From: Microbacterium lemovicicum
Lineage (GTDB): Bacteria; Actinomycetota; Actinomycetes; Actinomycetales; Microbacteriaceae
Length of the DNA: 64,000 nt
Assembly (NCBI RefSeq): GCF_003991875.1
Contig: NZ_CP031423.1
Coordinates: 3,491,648 to 3,555,647, forward strand
Reading direction: 5' to 3'
How positions within the stretch are numbered: the first letter of the stretch is position 1; the number at the start of each line of letters is the position of its first letter. A program made the translations under genes and the position numbers. Below, one piece after another: positions 21,635 through 31,539 of this stretch. A model generated the notes under the pieces. That model was not told the origin of the DNA, made no database searches, and saw nothing but the letters and a program-made list of their open reading frames with translations.

Positions 21635-22345
21635 ATGACGAAGAAGACGTACACCCGCCCACTGACGATCGGAGCGCTCGCGGGCGTCGCCCTGCTGGCT
21701 GTGGGAGCGCCCGCCTACGCCGAGACCGAGGTCTCCGAGCCGTCGGAGTTCACGAGCGCGTTCACCGTGATGGCCACGCCCGACCAGGTCATCAACAACG
21801 ACGGCGTCGCCGCCCCCGGCGAGAGCGGCGCGACGGGCACCTTCACCTTCCGCATCAACTCCGATCTCGAGATCATCTGCTACGACATCCGCCTCGAGGG
21901 CGTGACCGGCGACTACCAGAGCCCCGCCAAGACCGCCACGCACATCCACGAGGCGGCTGTCGGCAAGCCCGGGCCGCCCCGGATCTCCTTCCCCAATCCG
22001 GCTCCCGCCGGCGACGGACCTCGTACGTCGTCCGGCTGCCTGCAGGGTCCGTTCACCACCGGGATCCTGGCGGAGGGCGTCGACACCGGCGAGGGCTTCA
22101 CCCTCGCCCAGATCGAGGCGAACCCCGCCGGGTTCACCGGCGACTCGCACACCGTCACCTCGCCCGCGGGGGTCGTTCGCGGGCAGCTGTCCGCCATCCC
22201 CGTCGGCGGTGTCGACACGGGAGCAGGCGGAGCCGCCGACGCGGGCATGAACCCGCTCGTCGTCTCGGCCGCCGTCGGCGGTGCGGGCCTGCTCGCCGCG
22301 AGTGCGGTGCTGGTGCACCGACGTCGCGCATCCGCAGGGCGATGA
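21635..22345 (+). CDS. Secreted CHRD-domain protein with C-terminal membrane anchor
   Basis: The 236-residue protein has a Sec signal (LTIGALAGVALLAVGAPAYA), a CHRD domain (about 38-190: FTVMATPDQVINNDGVAAPGE, THIHEAAVGKPGP, GDSHTVTSPAGVVRGQL) and a C-terminal hydrophobic segment ending in HRRRASAGR. Before that segment lies PVGGVDTGAGG, similar to the TG-x-GG signals seen in substrates of actinobacterial class F sortases; this is inferred. The stop overlaps the next start as ATGA. An ECF promoter lies upstream, so it is probably made when the sigma factor is released. Confidence 0.85.
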   Translation: MTKKTYTRPLTIGALAGVALLAVGAPAYAETEVSEPSEFTSAFTVMATPDQVINNDGVAAPGESGATGTFTFRINSDLEIICYDIRLEGVTGDYQSPAKTATHIHEAAVGKPGPPRISFPNPAPAGDGPRTSSGCLQGPFTTGILAEGVDTGEGFTLAQIEANPAGFTGDSHTVTSPAGVVRGQLSAIPVGGVDTGAGGAADAGMNPLVVSAAVGGAGLLAASAVLVHRRRASAGR

Positions 22346-23008
22346 CCTCGAGATCCCACACGACACAGCGGGGCGCCCGATCAAGGCGCCCCGCGCTGGT
22401 CGCGGGCCTGGTCGCCCAGGTGACGATGTCAGGGCTGGCCGGGTGCACCGCGTCCGGCAGCGCTCCCGCCGGCGCCGGTGGCCGGCGCGACCGCGTCCGC
22501 CCCTCCTGCTGAGTCGGCGACGCCGGCGGCTTCGCCGACGCCCTCCGTACGGGCGTCACCACCGCGGTCAGCCGAACCGTCGCGACTGGTCATTCCGGCA
22601 CTGGGGCTGGATGAGCCTCTCATCGAGCTGGGCATCGCCCCGGACGGCAGCATGGAGGTGCCCGTTGACTACGACGAGGTCGGCTGGTTCACCGGCGGCG
22701 GTCGCCCCGGCAGCACCGGTCCCACCGTGATCGCCGCGCACGTCGACTCACCCACCGGACCCGCGGTCTTCCGTCATCTCGCCGACGTCTCGACCGGTGA
22801 CGTGATCGAGGTCCACGATTCGCAGCAGCGTACGCACCTCTACCGCGTCACGGAGACGCAGGACTACGCGAAGGCACTCTTCCCCACCGCGCAGGTCTTC
22901 GGGGCGACGCCCCGCGATGAGCTGCGCGTCATCACCCGCGGCGGTGTGTTCGACCGCGGAACGGGGCATTACCTCGACAACCGGGTCGTCTTCGCCGAGC
23001 GCATCTGA
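22342..23008 (+). pseudogene. Class F sortase, frameshifted and with the catalytic Cys replaced by Arg
   Basis: From the ATG at 22342 a lipoprotein-like signal is read (RRPALVAGLVAQ, then SGLAGCTASGSAPAGAG), but this frame stops at 22512. The expected Pro/Ala/Ser linker and sortase barrel continue one base over, from a GTG at 22478 to 23008. The barrel has the class F pattern: RLVIPALGLDEPLIELGI, GSMEVPVDYDEVGWF, IAAHVDSPTGPAVF with the active-site His, and the C-terminal HYLDNRVVFA with the Arg. Where class F sortases have ITCGG it reads ITRGG: codon 22937-22939 is CGC, not TGC. Both lesions predict an inactive, unanchored product. A sequencing error could explain one but hardly both. Confidence 0.85.
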
Positions 23009-26012: not shown

Positions 26013-27389
26013 CTACGCGAAGTCCCCGACCGGCGCCATGTCGGTGAAGCGGGAGAAGTGGCCCTGGAAGGCGACGGTGATCGTGTCGGTCGGGCCGTTG
26101 CGGTGCTTGGCGACGATGAGGTCGGCCTCGCCGGCACGGGGGCTGTCCTTCTCATAGGCGGCCTCGCGATGCAGCAGCACCACCATGTCGGCGTCCTGCT
26201 CGATCGAGCCCGACTCGCGGAGGTCGGAGAGCGCGGGCTTCTTGTCGGAGCGCTGCTCGGCGCCACGGTTCAGCTGCGACAGCGCCACGACCGGCACACC
26301 CAGCTCCTTGGCGAGGAGCTTGAGCGCGCGCGAGAACTCCGAGACCTCCTGCTGGCGCGACTCGACGCGCTTGCCGCTCGTCATGAGCTGCAGGTAGTCG
26401 ATGACGACCATCTTCAGGCCGACGCGCTGCTTGAGGCGACGGCACTTCGCGCGGATCTCGACCAGCGTCATGTTCGGGCTGTCGTCGATGTAGAGAGGGG
26501 CGTCGTTGATGCGTCCGCGCACCGACGCGATCGTCGTCCAGTCGCGGGAGTCGAGCGTGCCCTTGCGCATCGCCTGCAGGGGGATCGCGCCCTCGGCGCT
26601 CATGAGGCGCATGGCGATCTCGCTGCGACCCATCTCGAGCGAGAAGAAGATGGTCGGCATGTCGTTGCCGATGGCCGCGGTGCGGGCGAAGTCGAGCGCG
26701 AGCGTCGACTTACCCATGGCCGGACGCGCGGCGATGATGATCATCTGCCCCGGGTGCAGGCCGTTCGTCAGCTGGTCGAGGCCGGCGAAGCCGGTCGGGA
26801 TGCCGGTCATCTGACCGTCGCGACCGCGGGCGGCCTCGATCTCGTCGACGGCGGCGTCGACGGCGACCGTCAGCGGGACGTAGTCCTCGACGGCGTCGGC
26901 GCCGGTGACGCCGTAGATCTCCGCCTGCGCGGTGTTGACGAGGTCGAGCGCCTCGCCCTCGCCCTGGTAGCCCATCTGCACGATGCGCGTGCCGGCCTCG
27001 ACGAGACGGCGCAGCAGCGCGCGCTCGGAGACGATCGAGGCGTAGTAGCCCGCGTTGGCCGCCGTCGGCACGATCGAGGTCAGGGTGTGCAGGTAATCGG
27101 CCCCGCCCGCGCGCTGCAGCTCGCCGGTCTTGATGAGCTCGTCGGTGACCGCGACGACGTCGGTCGGCTCACCGTGCGAGTACAGCGAGAGGATGGCCTC
27201 GTAGATGAGCTCGTGCTTCGGCACATAGAAGTCCGCGCCGCGCAGGCTCTCGATGACGTCGGCGACGGCGTCCTTCGAGAGCAGCATGCCGCCCAGCGCG
27301 CTCTGCTCCGCCAGCACGTCGTGCGGAGGCGTCCGCTCGTACTGCCGGGGTCCCCCCAGACGCTCCTCCGAGATGTCGGCGATCGACAT
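26013..27389 (-). CDS. dnaB: Replicative DNA helicase DnaB
   Basis: The 458-residue helicase unwinds DNA at replication forks as a hexamer. The N-terminal primase-interaction domain (PPHDVLAEQSALGGMLLS) is followed by the RecA-like ATPase with Walker A ARPAMGKST, IFFSLEMGRSEIAMRL, Walker B MVVIDYLQLM and LSQLNRGAEQRSDKKP. No intein is present, unlike mycobacterial DnaB. ATG 27389 is preceded by AGGAGAGGA. The region upstream contains four DnaA-box-like sequences. As in M. tuberculosis it lies downstream of the rpsF-ssb-rpsR-rplI unit, here across two inserted opposite-strand genes. Confidence 0.97.
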   Translation of the reverse strand: MSIADISEERLGGPRQYERTPPHDVLAEQSALGGMLLSKDAVADVIESLRGADFYVPKHELIYEAILSLYSHGEPTDVVAVTDELIKTGELQRAGGADYLHTLTSIVPTAANAGYYASIVSERALLRRLVEAGTRIVQMGYQGEGEALDLVNTAQAEIYGVTGADAVEDYVPLTVAVDAAVDEIEAARGRDGQMTGIPTGFAGLDQLTNGLHPGQMIIIAARPAMGKSTLALDFARTAAIGNDMPTIFFSLEMGRSEIAMRLMSAEGAIPLQAMRKGTLDSRDWTTIASVRGRINDAPLYIDDSPNMTLVEIRAKCRRLKQRVGLKMVVIDYLQLMTSGKRVESRQQEVSEFSRALKLLAKELGVPVVALSQLNRGAEQRSDKKPALSDLRESGSIEQDADMVVLLHREAAYEKDSPRAGEADLIVAKHRNGPTDTITVAFQGHFSRFTDMAPVGDFA

Positions 27390-27470
27390 GCTGCCGTCCT
27401 CTCCTGTCGTCTTCACCCTCATCGCGCGTGCCCGTGAGGTGCGCGCGCGAACAGCGCCGATCCGATCTGC

Positions 27471-27486
27471 GGATGCCGCGGCATCC
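27471..27486. repeat. GGATGCCGCGGCATCC palindrome
   Basis: A perfect 16-bp palindrome. Exact copies also lie at 32910-32925, 34937-34952, 45023-45038 and 46000-46015. This copy is intergenic, upstream of dnaB. Confidence 0.9.
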
Positions 27487-27612
27487 GCTCCCCGATCGAG
27501 CACAGCCCACCACGAACCGCCGACATCGCATCACCCCCGATGGATGACGGCGCAGTCGTCCGATGGGCCGGACCCCACGCTATGGAGGGTGATTCCGAGG
27601 CGCAAACAGCCC

Positions 27613-27678: not shown

Positions 27679-28177
27679 CCTTCTTATCGCGAGTGGGTCG
27701 AAAGAATTTAAGTGCTCCTGATCTGCCCTTCTCATCGCGGTGAGGGTGTGGAGGAAGAAAGAGGTGAACTCGGGATTGAAGGTTCGGTCTGATAGGAGCG
27801 GCTGTGTACAGATCTGGGGATGACGAGCGACGTCGTGTTCTCGATCGGTACGCGACCGACAGCCGGCCGTTCGGCGACAGCCGGCCTCCTCTGGGCGCCT
27901 CTGCGGCACGCAGAGCAGGACCCCACCCCGAACAGCTCAGCGCTCCCACGGGTGCGCACAAGGCCCTCCTGCGGTCTCCGCCCCTGCTTCGTCCTCCCCA
28001 TCGCACTGATCGAGCGATCCATACGCGACGCGACGACGGCCGAGGCCCGTCGCGACGAAAAGGGGGCCTCACCTACCCACGTCGCGATCGCAGGGCTAGC
28101 TTCAGATCACCAGGCACCCCTAGATCTGCTCCTCACGGACGGATCTCCTTTTACGTCGTCGTATTCGGGAGGTGAAC

Positions 28178-29335
28178 ATGGACGCCATTCATCCGCAGCG
28201 CGTGTCGAGGATCTCCACGCTGCTGATCGCCTCCCTCGGCGTCGCGTTCGCCTGGGTGCTCCTGTCTCTCGTTCTGGGCTTCTCCGCGCCTCAGGCGCAC
28301 GCCGACGACGACGGTCTGCTCGGCACGGTGACCTCCACGGTCGAGCGCACCACCTCCTCCGCGACCCAGGTCGTCTCCGACACCACCTCGTCCGTGACCG
28401 ACCTCGTCAGCGACACGGTCGCCGCCGTCTCGGAGCCGGCCGCGCCGCCCGCCCCGATCGCGCCGCCCGCCCCCATCGCGCCGGTCGTCGAACAGGTCGC
28501 GCCGGTCGTGGCCCCCGTGGTGGAGACGGTCGCCCCCGTGGTCGCCCCGATCACCGAGGCCGTGGCCCCCGTCGTCGCCGGTGTGACCCCCGTCGTGGAG
28601 ACGGTCGAGTCCGCGGTCGGCACCGTCACCACGGGTGCGACGGAGATCGTCGATGCCGGCGTCATCAGTCCGGTCGTGGATGCGGGCGTCGAGGTCGTGA
28701 CGTCGCTCCCTGTCGTCGGTGACGTCGTGGCCTCCACCGGCGTCGATGACGCCCTCTCGTCCGTCGGCCACACCGTCGACGGCGTGCTGCAGGGCACGAC
28801 GGAGGCGGTCGTCCGCCCCGTGACGGAGATCGTCGACACCGTGACCGACCCCGTCGAGGGTGTCGTCGACGGGGCAGTCCCCGCTGCGGTGACGCCTGTC
28901 GTGCCGGTGACCGGCAGCCTCACGCCGCTGTCGCCCGCGCTCGCCCCCGCCTCAGAGCTCCCCGCCTCCCGCACTCTTCCCCGACCCCTCGACGCGACGT
29001 CCGCAGCCGGACCGCTGGACTACTTCGCGCGTGCGGCGGTGCTGAGCGGCACCGCCCTGTGGATGGCCGTCGCGCCGTCCGCCACGGCCGTCGTGTCGTC
29101 GGCGGATGCCGCGGCCATCGGCGGCGGCGCATCGAACGACCCGTTATCGCTGCTGCGTTCGACGCTGCAGGGCGAATCGTCCTCCATGGGGCCCGCCGGT
29201 GCGGGTTCCGGTGCCTGGGCGCTGATCGCCGTCGCGTTCGTGCTCGCATACCGTGCCTGGATGCGACGCACCGGACTCGAGGACGACGCGGCTCCCGTGG
29301 CACCCACCTACCCCACCGACGTCTCTCCCGACTGA
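28178..29335 (+). CDS. Secreted low-complexity Val/Pro/Thr-rich protein with C-terminal membrane segment
   Basis: The 385-residue protein has a signal or signal-anchor (TLLIASLGVAFAWVLLSLVL, then APQAHADDD), a long Val/Thr/Pro/Ala repeat region with irregular VAPVVETVAPVV units (about 85-160), VVDAGVEV and VVETV repeats, and a hydrophobic segment near the C-terminus (GAWALIAVAFVLAYRAWMRR). It is probably extracytoplasmic. GGAGG lies five bases before ATG 28178. It is followed by the chaplin-like gene and they may work together at the surface. I recognise no family. Confidence 0.75.
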   Translation: MDAIHPQRVSRISTLLIASLGVAFAWVLLSLVLGFSAPQAHADDDGLLGTVTSTVERTTSSATQVVSDTTSSVTDLVSDTVAAVSEPAAPPAPIAPPAPIAPVVEQVAPVVAPVVETVAPVVAPITEAVAPVVAGVTPVVETVESAVGTVTTGATEIVDAGVISPVVDAGVEVVTSLPVVGDVVASTGVDDALSSVGHTVDGVLQGTTEAVVRPVTEIVDTVTDPVEGVVDGAVPAAVTPVVPVTGSLTPLSPALAPASELPASRTLPRPLDATSAAGPLDYFARAAVLSGTALWMAVAPSATAVVSSADAAAIGGGASNDPLSLLRSTLQGESSSMGPAGAGSGAWALIAVAFVLAYRAWMRRTGLEDDAAPVAPTYPTDVSPD

Positions 29336-29419
29336 TCGGACCTCGTCGCCCCCTCGGCGACCGAGTGTCATCGCGCATTCCCGCGCATCCGAACAGTCAA
29401 CACATCTCGAGGAGAGATC

Positions 29420-30955
29420 ATGAACACCTTCATCACGCGCGCCTTGATCGGCACGCTTCTCGCCGGCGGCGTCACGCTGCTCGGCGCGACGGTCGCCAAC
29501 GCGGCCGAGACCACGGGCGAGGACGGACTGCTGTCCGGCACCCAGGCCCTCATCGACGTGTCGGCCCCGGTCGACGTCGTCGGCGACGCGGTGTCGCTCA
29601 TCGGGGACAGCTCATCCACGACGGCCCCGGCACCCGCGGAGGCCGCACCGGCTCCCGCGGCCGAGGTCACGACGAGCGGCCTCGACGGCATCCTGTCGGG
29701 CGATCAGGCCATCGTGAGCGTCGACATCCCGATCACCGTCACCGACAACGCGGTATCGGTCATCGGCGACAGCACCGTCGAGGACGCGGCTCCCGCTGCG
29801 CCGGCCGAGCCTGCCGAGCCTGCTGCACCCGCCGAGGCTCCGGCCCCCGAGGCGAGCACCAGCGGCGAGGACGGCATCGCGTCGGGCAACCAGGCGGTCG
29901 TCGACCTGGACGTTCCGGTCACCGTCGGCGGCAACGCCGTCTCCGTCATCGGAGACAGCAGCGTCACCGACACCGCCCCCGCAGCGGCGCCGGTGGCCCC
30001 GGCCACCGGCGGCACCACGACGGCACCCGTCACCACCGGCGAGGACAGCATCCTCGGCGGCAACCAGGTGATCCCCGTCGTCGACATCCCCGTCACCGTC
30101 GGCGGCAACGCCGTCTCCGTCATCGGAGACAGCAGCGTCACCGACACCGCCCCCGCAGCTGCCCCGGCAGCCCCGGCCACCGGCGGCACCACGACGGCAC
30201 CCGTCACCACCGGCGAGGACAGCATCCTCGGCGGCAACCAGGTGATCCCCGTCCTGGACATCCCCGTCACCGTCGGCGGGAACGCCATCTCGGTCATCGG
30301 AGACAGCAGTGTGGTGGGCGGCACGGGCACGGGAACCGGCCTCGGCGGCGGATCGCCTCTCGCGCCGATCACCTCGGGTGAGGACGGCATCCTCGGCGGC
30401 AACCAGCTGATCCCGGTCGTCAACCTCCCGATCACCGTCGGCGGCAACGCCATCTCCGTCATCGGAGACAGCACCGTCACCACCCCCGGCACCCCGGGAA
30501 CGCCCGGCACACCCGGCACCCCCGGCACCCCCGGCACCCCGGGCACCCCCGGCACCCCGGGCACCCCGGGCACCCCCGGCACCCCGGGAACGCCCGGCAC
30601 GCCCGGCACCCCGGGAACGCCCGGCACGCCCGGCACCCCGGGAACGCCCGGCACACCCGGCACCCCCGGCACCCCCGGCACCCCCGGCACACCGGGCACT
30701 CCCGGCACCCCCGGCACCCCCGGCACACCGGGCACTCCGGGCACTCCGGGCACTCCCGGTACCCCGGCCACTGCCGGAACACCCGCGGGCGCGACCGTCT
30801 ACGCCGCCGCGTCGACCGCAGCCGCGTCGACCGCGAACGCCCCGGCCGCGCGCCTGGCGACCACCGGAGGAGAGAGCGCCCTTCCGGCACTCCTGATGGC
30901 ACTCGTGCTGTTCGGAGCCGGCGCGGCGTTCCTGCTGCGGCGCCGCACCGCCTGA
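29420..30955 (+). CDS. Cys-free chaplin-like surface protein with Gly-Thr-Pro collagen-like tract and LATTG sorting signal
   Basis: The 511-residue protein has a Sec signal (1-29, cleavage after VANAA), six 32-residue chaplin-like segments (33-64, 87-118, 149-180, 207-238, 265-296, 320-351; consensus [25 protein letters not shown]), 31 perfect Gly-Thr-Pro triplets (357-449), and a sorting signal LATTG (479-483), then a membrane segment and RRRTA. Streptomyces chaplins are amyloid-forming, cell-surface proteins usually with two Cys; these segments have none. LAxTG is the class E sortase motif, and no such sortase is in the window. GGAGAGATC precedes the ATG. Segments 3-5 sit on a 58-residue period. 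Confidence 0.9.
29864..30307 (+). repeat. 174-bp tandem repeat units within the chaplin-like gene
   Basis: Chaplin-like segments 3, 4 and 5 start 174 bases apart (58 codons). The DNA of the last two units is almost identical, including silent positions, from about 29,920 to 30,280, which points to a recent duplication. Confidence 0.8.
30488..30766 (+). repeat. 9-bp repeat tract encoding 31 Gly-Thr-Pro triplets
   Basis: The tract is 279 bases of GGN-ACN-CCN units in uninterrupted frame. Codon choice varies between units (ACC, ACG, ACA and ACT; CCC and CCG), so the peptide repeat is kept while the DNA has diverged, which suggests selection on the protein. Confidence 0.95.
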
Positions 30956-31020
30956 CGCGGACGGAGCGGGCCGGCCGTGCCTGGTCCGACCTGCTCCGCC
31001 GCCGACGCGGCCGGTGAAAG

Positions 31021-31073
31021 GACGGATGCCGCGACCCGAACCCCTGTGGAGGGGCCGGGCCGCGGCATCCGTC
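31021..31073. terminator. Bidirectional terminator hairpin between the chaplin-like gene and rplI
   Basis: Outer arms 31021-31038 and 31056-31073 pair over 18 bases with one mismatch, and an inner CCCCT/AGGGG pair (31041-31045 and 31050-31054) extends the stem. It ends both the convergent chaplin-like gene and rplI. The stem contains the GGATGCCGCG half-palindrome. Confidence 0.75.
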
Positions 31074-31086
31074 TGCCTTCTGCGCC

Positions 31087-31539
31087 TTACTTGGCGGAGA
31101 CCACCTGAAGGGTGATCACGGCGGTCAGGTCGTCGCGGAGACGCACCGTGGCCTCGTGCTCGCCGATCGACTTGATGGGCGTGGTGATGTGGATCTTGCG
31201 CTTGTCCAGGTCGCCCAGGCCGGCGGCCTTGACGGCGTCGGCGATGTGGTCGGTCTTGACCGAGCCGAACAGACGGCCTTCGCTGCCGGTCTTGACGGCG
31301 AGCTTGACCTTGTTGGACTCGAGCGTGTTCTTGAGCGCCACGGCCTCTTCGTGATCGTGGATCGCGCGGGAGTCACGGGCGGCGCGGATCGACGCCACCT
31401 GCTTCTCGCCACCGCGGGTCCACGCCACGGCGAAGCCCTGGGGGATGAGGTAGTTGCGGGCGAACCCGTCCTTGACCTCGACAACGTCTCCGGCGCCGCC
31501 GAGACCGGCGACCTCGTTCGTGAGAATCAGCTTCGACAT
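31087..31539 (-). CDS. rplI: 50S ribosomal protein L9
   Basis: The 150-residue protein starts [20 protein letters not shown] and has the L9 signature [17 protein letters not shown], then the long connecting helix and the C-terminal domain ending [10 protein letters not shown]. It binds 23S rRNA. It is the last gene of rpsF-ssb-rpsR-rplI, nine bases after rpsR. Confidence 0.98.

Follow-up and report, generated by a model that had tools for sequence, protein, structure and literature searches.

This study concerns a gene for a multi-chaplin surface protein in Microbacterium lemovicicum, which lies in a stretch of 64,000 nucleotides (contig NZ_CP031423.1; hereafter the window, to which all coordinates refer). 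An open reading frame (ORF) with an ATG start at 29420..30955 on the + strand encodes a protein of 511 residues, here called the array protein, which we delimited by the ORF, by profile matches and by a reading of its segments. The parts of this gene, all on the + strand, are a Shine-Dalgarno-like AGGAGAG ahead of the ATG (29410..29416; read from the sequence), a signal peptide recognized by eye (residues 1-29; 29420..29506), with similar starts in nine aligned orthologues, and six chaplin segments (residues 33-66, 87-120, 149-182, 207-240, 265-298 and 320-353, at 29516..29617, 29678..29779, 29864..29965, 30038..30139, 30212..30313 and 30377..30478, respectively). These are followed by a stalk of 31 Gly-Thr-Pro triplets (residues 357-449; 30488..30766) and by an LATTG sorting motif (residues 479-483; 30854..30868), behind which lie a hydrophobic stretch and RRR. 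An earlier prediction made from the letters of this DNA had described a Cys-free protein with six chaplin-like segments, a 31-triplet stalk and an LAxTG-type anchor, and each of these elements was borne out: the Pfam chaplin model PF03777 matched six stretches (total E 9.6e-18; 64.2 bits, cut-off 21), the Cys count of the 511 residues is zero, the 31.0 triplets are uninterrupted, and the LATTG that begins at residue 479 lies in a match to the LAVTG-type sorting domain NF058582, which at 27.8 bits is barely above its cut-off of 27. At the DNA level, segments 3-6 are spanned by a tandem array with a period of 174 bp and 3.6 copies.

Compared with the classical chaplin domain, the modules of this protein are both shorter and differently equipped. 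The PF03777 alignments with shown ends (three of the six in one search and the best one in another) end at position 45 or 46 of the 57 in the model, and the modules thus fall short of the whole domain. The two conserved Cys are missing as well, since Cys occurs in none of 424 segments (60 Microbacterium loci plus the window), and the usual three GN motifs are reduced to two in each of segments 3-6 and to none in segments 1-2; a GN behind the second strand was found in only 34 of the 424. In contrast, among 61 control domains from loci of several families, picked by a regular expression that required one GN but not Cys, all 61 had at least two Cys and 53 had at least three GN. A class-wide search found PF03777 in 40 of 197 genomes, with the strongest matches in a single family whose genomes are large (6.1-9.9 Mb) and have 6-15 matches each; we infer this family to be Streptomyces, and the PF03777 rows listed for it mostly span model positions 1-8 to 55-57. 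Within the order, some arrays do contain Cys: in 109 other loci read, it was present in 12 of 730 segments (L194, L203, L245, L251, L252, L254). Thus, from where the matches end and from the absence of Cys relative to the controls, we conclude that the array module is a shortened chaplin without the Cys pair. Exceptions to the two-Cys rule have been described for ChpE (PMC3079736) and for the second domain of ChpB (PMC13251363); these and the other papers cited here are cited from excerpts.

An alignment of 36 chosen segments showed Gly, Gln and Pro positions that are invariant across species, and the alternation of hydrophobic residues in strand 1 exceeded that of shuffled sequences for segments 1-3 (P = 0.0045-0.01). 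Middle segments were more alike within each of 59 proteins (0.66; 0.72 for adjacent ones) than between proteins (0.56), as would be expected from repeat homogenization.

We found that the anchor of this protein is matched by a suitable enzyme in the genome. The sorting motif is LAxTG in 127 of 131 unique stalks and LPxTG in four, although these stalks were selected by the [LI][AP]xTG that follows them; LAxTG is the signal of class E sortases, and the class E enzyme SrtE anchors chaplins (PMC5148588). The genome has five sortase matches: one of class E, one of class C, and three that come closest to class F, only one of which passes the cut-off of the class F model. The class E sortase, which the original prediction had suggested seeking elsewhere in the genome, scored 240.2 bits with NF033747, compared to a cut-off of 160. 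We extended this comparison to the genus, in genomes sampled one per species (with the window genome included in this and in the family and order counts below), and obtained a class E match in 234 of 247 Microbacterium genomes, 228 of them over the cut-off. None of the 13 genomes without any class E match has the array. Restricting the count to the 228 genomes that are at least 90% complete, and scoring SrtE as a class E match over the cut-off, we found 146 with both array and SrtE, none with only the array, 69 with only SrtE and 13 with neither (Fisher P = 8.7e-7, by a test that ignores relatedness). Since relatedness is ignored, and since the two sortase-less genomes on a DnaB+RplI tree (L291 and L292) are neighbors, the tendency of the array to go with the class E sortase is suggestive only; it is also one-sided, as the 69 genomes with the sortase and without the array indicate. 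Elsewhere in the window, a protein with a GVDTG sorting domain (21635-23008, + strand; NF058571, 42.5 bits, cut-off 29) is directly followed downstream by a class-F-like sortase (152.5 bits, under the cut-off of 166), and the two may be a dedicated sortase-substrate pair.

The original prediction noted that Gly at each third residue of the stalk is the collagen pattern, and the uninterrupted tract of 31 Gly-x-y triplets matched the Pfam Collagen model PF01391 (E 5.2e-16; 58.6 bits). The 31 nine-base units that encode it differ from their consensus at 31 places, all of them third codon positions and none of them first or second positions, although the units are not independent, since repeats copy each other. 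Thus, by this codon pattern, the tract is translated in the array frame, which contradicts one of the two conditions under which the original prediction was to fail and rules out a chance or untranslated repeat; the other condition, a lack of chaplin profile matches to the segments, is countered by the six PF03777 stretches. To compare stalks across relatives, we started from 175 array ORFs and set aside 5 with unread letters and 22 without [LI][AP]xTG (many of them cut by the end of the locus, some frameshifted, and one, in L084, with LAQAG in its place), which left 148 ORFs with 131 unique stalks. Only 31 of these 131 have at least ten Gly-x-y triplets. Their most frequent units are DPGT (33), DPT (27) and GTP (22), alongside PVT, PTT, DPG, GNP, NPT, GGGNP and others, so that orthologous stalks have periods of 3, 4, 5 or 6 and many lack Gly at each third residue; the distance from the last segment to the sorting motif has a median of 78 residues (5-95%: 53-134.5). 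Collagen as a functional trait of the family, or as a shared mechanism, was therefore not upheld by the survey. Since chemistry and period vary while the position of the spacer stays, we favor reading the stalk as a spacer that spans the wall, and take the collagen pattern of this protein to be an accident of its nine-base unit. Spacers rich in Pro, Gly and Thr are a usual part of sortase substrates. With regard to possible O-mannosylation of a Thr-rich stalk, the genome has a PMT-family match, although the family also matches 8 of 14 control genomes.

The array is not confined to this genome, and its presence in the Microbacteriaceae is no oddity of one member. PF03777 itself matched 143 of 247 Microbacterium genomes. 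An array profile built from the 36 segments matched 152 of the 247; in the family it matched 93 of 299 genomes, spread over 30 of the 85 genera sampled, and in the order 55 of 396 genomes, spread over 18 of 109 genera. Among the best 80 of 245 loci, for which names were obtained, 25 come from other genera and 55 are nearly all titled Microbacterium; the named relatives with the array include Agromyces, Herbiconiux, Leifsonia, Plantibacter, Agreia, Frigoribacterium, Okibacterium, Mycetocola and Janibacter. Arrays mostly have 5-10 modules per protein.

In the window, the array gene lies between two genes on the - strand that we take to be dnaB (26013..27503) and rplI (31087..31539) from their sequences. 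We read 60 loci from the 143 PF03777-positive Microbacterium genomes, taken from the top of the match list and thus biased to strong matches, and recognized dnaB in 57, rplI in 55 and at least one of both in all 60; one locus with a missing flank (L069) runs to the end of its contig. In contrast, dnaB or rplI was found at none of the 25 named loci of other genera, compared to 53 of the 55 remaining named loci. Thus, among the loci read, the dnaB/rplI place is conserved within Microbacterium only.

Within the genus, the array is evidently dispensable at the species level, since its profile matched nothing in 95 of 247 congeners. We examined the dnaB-rplI interval in 20 array-negative Microbacterium loci (19 of these 95, and G810), and found an empty site in 12, with 338-649 bp between the dnaB and rplI matches, and longer gaps in L281, L285, L287 and L290. 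L276 and L280, by comparison, encode a protein whose signal peptide is of the same type and which has a Pro-rich stalk and an LAxTG, but whose head is a different, Gly/Asp-rich one, in an apparent exchange of heads; the L276 protein had no Pfam family over the cut-off. L286 retains a truncated first segment. In L289 a stretch of bases is unread, so that this locus may be a false negative. When mapped onto a DnaB+RplI tree of 78 taxa, presence and absence of the array need at least 16 changes; in 500 label shuffles the mean was 18.0 and the smallest number 14. Thus, on this tree, the presence of the array is scattered and its turnover, by loss or gain, is frequent.

A second gene appears to belong with the array. 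Lying 84 bp upstream on the + strand (28172..29335) is a gene for a 387-residue protein that is rich in Val, Pro and Thr, has a start resembling a secretion signal, ends in TDVSPD, and gave no Pfam or NCBIfam match over the cut-off. When we searched for ORFs that end in [DN][VIL][ST][PA][DE], 46 of the 60 Microbacterium loci had one immediately upstream of the array, and the number rose to 53 of 60 once tblastn matches to the window's upstream protein (27 of 60) were added. In the set of 80 named loci, which shares genomes with the set of 60, such an ORF is adjacent in 46. It is adjacent in only 3 of the 25 loci of other genera, namely Herbiconiux L194 (TDVSPD), Leifsonia L215 and Okibacterium L219 (both SDVTPD), and none of the 14 Agromyces loci among the 25 has an adjacent ORF with the motif; L179 and L224 have a tblastn match only. 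The pattern does have some background, as L163 shows, where a match to it lies away from the array and seems fortuitous. Four of the 20 array-negative loci (L276, L280, L286, L289) also have such an ORF. The last five residues of the 94 matching ORFs are D in 94, V in 93, S in 91, P in 94 and D in 94, preceded by T in 85; because the search pattern demanded an end of this kind, only the narrowing within it is informative. A hydrophobic stretch occurs in the last 70 residues of only 15 of the 94. Based on this adjacency, the TDVSPD protein is probably a working partner of the array.

Taking these features together, we lean toward the interpretation that the array protein coats the cell surface as a single-chain chaplin array attached covalently to the wall. 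Following secretion, SrtE would cut the protein at LATTG and join it to peptidoglycan, as the motif and the enzyme suggest, and the stalk would cross the wall as an extended spacer. Judging from chaplin biology, the beta-prone modules might then associate with each other or with hydrophobic surfaces, and the outcome could be a sticky or hydrophobic coat that helps attachment and cell-cell contact. As our searches of the genome gave no second chaplin gene, a single chain would take on the job of the separate long and short chaplins of Streptomyces. Both amyloid formation and adhesion by the array are inferred, by analogy with the Cys-less ChpE and with reduced chaplins, which make fibrils (PMC3079736), and with the attachment that chaplins mediate in Streptomyces (PMC8166509, PMC4255298). 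Tentatively, and with less confidence than we place in the coat itself, we suggest a two-gene surface-coat module of non-sporulating actinobacteria, in which a partner, typically ending in TDVSPD, is paired with a class-E-anchored array. Such a module would have discarded the disulfides and the third GN turn, would set its valency by repeat number (mostly 5-10) and could exchange heads on a conserved frame of signal, stalk and anchor, as in L276 and L280; it might represent the adhesive version of the chaplin system, working on its own in lineages that have no aerial growth.

Several observations weigh against the wall-anchored coat. Compared with classical chaplins, the modules are missing the third GN motif and the two Cys, and the Cys of ChpH are required in vivo for aerial hyphae and rodlets (PMC3079736), so that Cys-free modules need not act like ChpH. 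The segments have a net charge of -3 to -6, and the beta-moment test that was significant for segments 1-3 was not so for segments 4-6 (P = 0.13-0.15). AlphaFold models of the protein were weak, with a mean predicted local distance difference test (pLDDT) score of 37.3 from 10 rows and of 64.7 from 48 rows, and two fold comparisons with the second model gave no significant fold match. The array profile has no match in 95 congeners, one array genome (G055, 87% complete) is among the 19 without a class E match over the cut-off, and the association with the sortase comes from a test that takes no account of relatedness. A different view of the heads, which we regard as unlikely but deserving serious attention, is that they fold as monomers, for example in a beta-solenoid-like stack, and that the protein works without amyloid formation, as an ordinary multivalent adhesin or binding protein. 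The regular repeats and the invariant Gly, Gln and Pro positions of the 36 segments would fit such a fold, as would the short strands of the second AlphaFold model (four each in segments 1 and 2 of the modeled piece, and three in the last). Also on this side are the 14 PDB matches of this model, none of them significant, which include ice-binding proteins and CsgA and many of which we take to be solenoids, and, by sequence, the only two matches to solved structures, both weak and both to maltose O-acetyltransferase (E 0.047 and 0.056).

Three other explanations have more set against them. That the Gly-Thr-Pro tract forms a collagen triple helix, trimerizing the protein into a rigid stalk, is improbable: the 31 perfect triplets, their Collagen score, the lack of any non-synonymous change among the units and the 31 unique stalks with at least ten Gly-x-y triplets all speak for it, but the other 100 of the 131 have no such run, relatives use DPGT, DPT, PVT, NPT or GGGNP instead, and Pfam gave no further domain able to trimerize the array protein. 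Since the heads and the anchor stay while the period and Gly content of the stalk change, a triple helix is not a shared requirement, although this one strain might conceivably form one. We think it more doubtful still that the array is a neutral or decaying remnant maintained by the turnover of its repeats. The intact frame, the purely synonymous differences among stalk units, the invariance of segment positions across species in the 36-row alignment and the conserved place and anchor all argue otherwise, although a relic would explain the absence of the array in 95 of 247 genomes, the truncated remnant in one relative (L286) and the apparent frameshifts in a few genomes (L051, L074, L088). 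Least probable, and very much so, is that the protein acts as ChpA-C do in Streptomyces, recruiting secreted short chaplins from its place on the wall into a joint fibril layer. The domain family, the type of sorting signal and the presence of a class E sortase are common to both, but we found only one PF03777 locus in the genome, and all six matches of the 36-segment profile lie in the array gene; seeding of short chaplins is thus disfavored, because neither the Pfam model nor the genus-tuned profile located a second chaplin gene.

The comparison with known systems shows where the array is distinct. Like the long chaplins ChpA-C, it is predicted to be secreted, repeats PF03777, has an LAxTG signal and comes from a genome with a class E sortase; unlike them, it usually has five to ten shortened modules rather than two full ones, has no Cys, usually lacks the third GN, has a long simple-repeat stalk, and was found with no short chaplins alongside. 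The short chaplin ChpE likewise has a chaplin domain without the two Cys and forms fibrils (PMC3079736), although as a single free domain with no anchor. Arrays in four genomes of one genus from another family (L318, L319, L320, L323) also have six GGNQ-type modules per chain but keep their Cys (VCGN ... DAGC in the modules printed), and our script saw no LAxTG at the ORF end. The Actinoplanes proteins CwpA and CwpB are hydrophobic surface proteins anchored by SrtE, as the array protein would be, but in the excerpted text their authors conclude that they have no chaplin domain (PMC13251363). The collagen-like LPXTG adhesin SclB (NF038329) shares a Gly-x-y tract ahead of the sorting signal; however, the array protein scores 22.3 bits with that model, far under the cut-off of 325, and its orthologues do not keep the Gly-x-y pattern. 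Finally, non-sporulating Arthrobacter chlorophenolicus, without aerial growth, also has a chaplin-like protein, to which we liken the array by description only (PMC4255298). Thus, a chaplin-like protein in a non-sporulating actinobacterium is already known, as is the Pfam domain family.

Most work on chaplins has dealt with their part in aerial growth and sporulation. In the openly licensed literature on PF03777 and on chaplins in Microbacterium, Microbacteriaceae, Arthrobacter, Leifsonia and Agromyces, none of the papers listed was evidently on such an array, judging from titles and the starts of abstracts, and we found no description there of the truncated Cys-free architecture, its prevalence, place and partner gene, the variability of its stalk or its turnover. 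A shortened, Cys-free, single-chain chaplin would offer a one-gene system for the role of chaplins without aerial hyphae, and bears on how many modules a coat needs and on whether adhesion is the older chaplin role, a possibility raised in the excerpted text of PMC4255298. The recurring TDVSPD end of the partner is a further lead.

We also noted further features of the loci. Between the convergent array gene and rplI lies a strong hairpin (31016..31078; -47.8 kcal/mol, z -6.88), which may be a shared terminator, although it has no T-run; a search for promoter and terminator patterns found none. The frame of the array or stalk is seemingly broken by a frameshift in L051, L074 and L088, and also in L191 and L195, which might reflect either misassembly of GC-rich repeats or true differences in length. 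A further genus of the family has weak chaplin-segment matches within an open frame of 2237 residues (G331:C5:478571-479230; L248). At seven loci (L039, L054, L057, L076, L077, L093, L290), the DnaB match is split by about 1 kb near query residues 265-305 (265-405 in L057), as would result from insertion of an intein.
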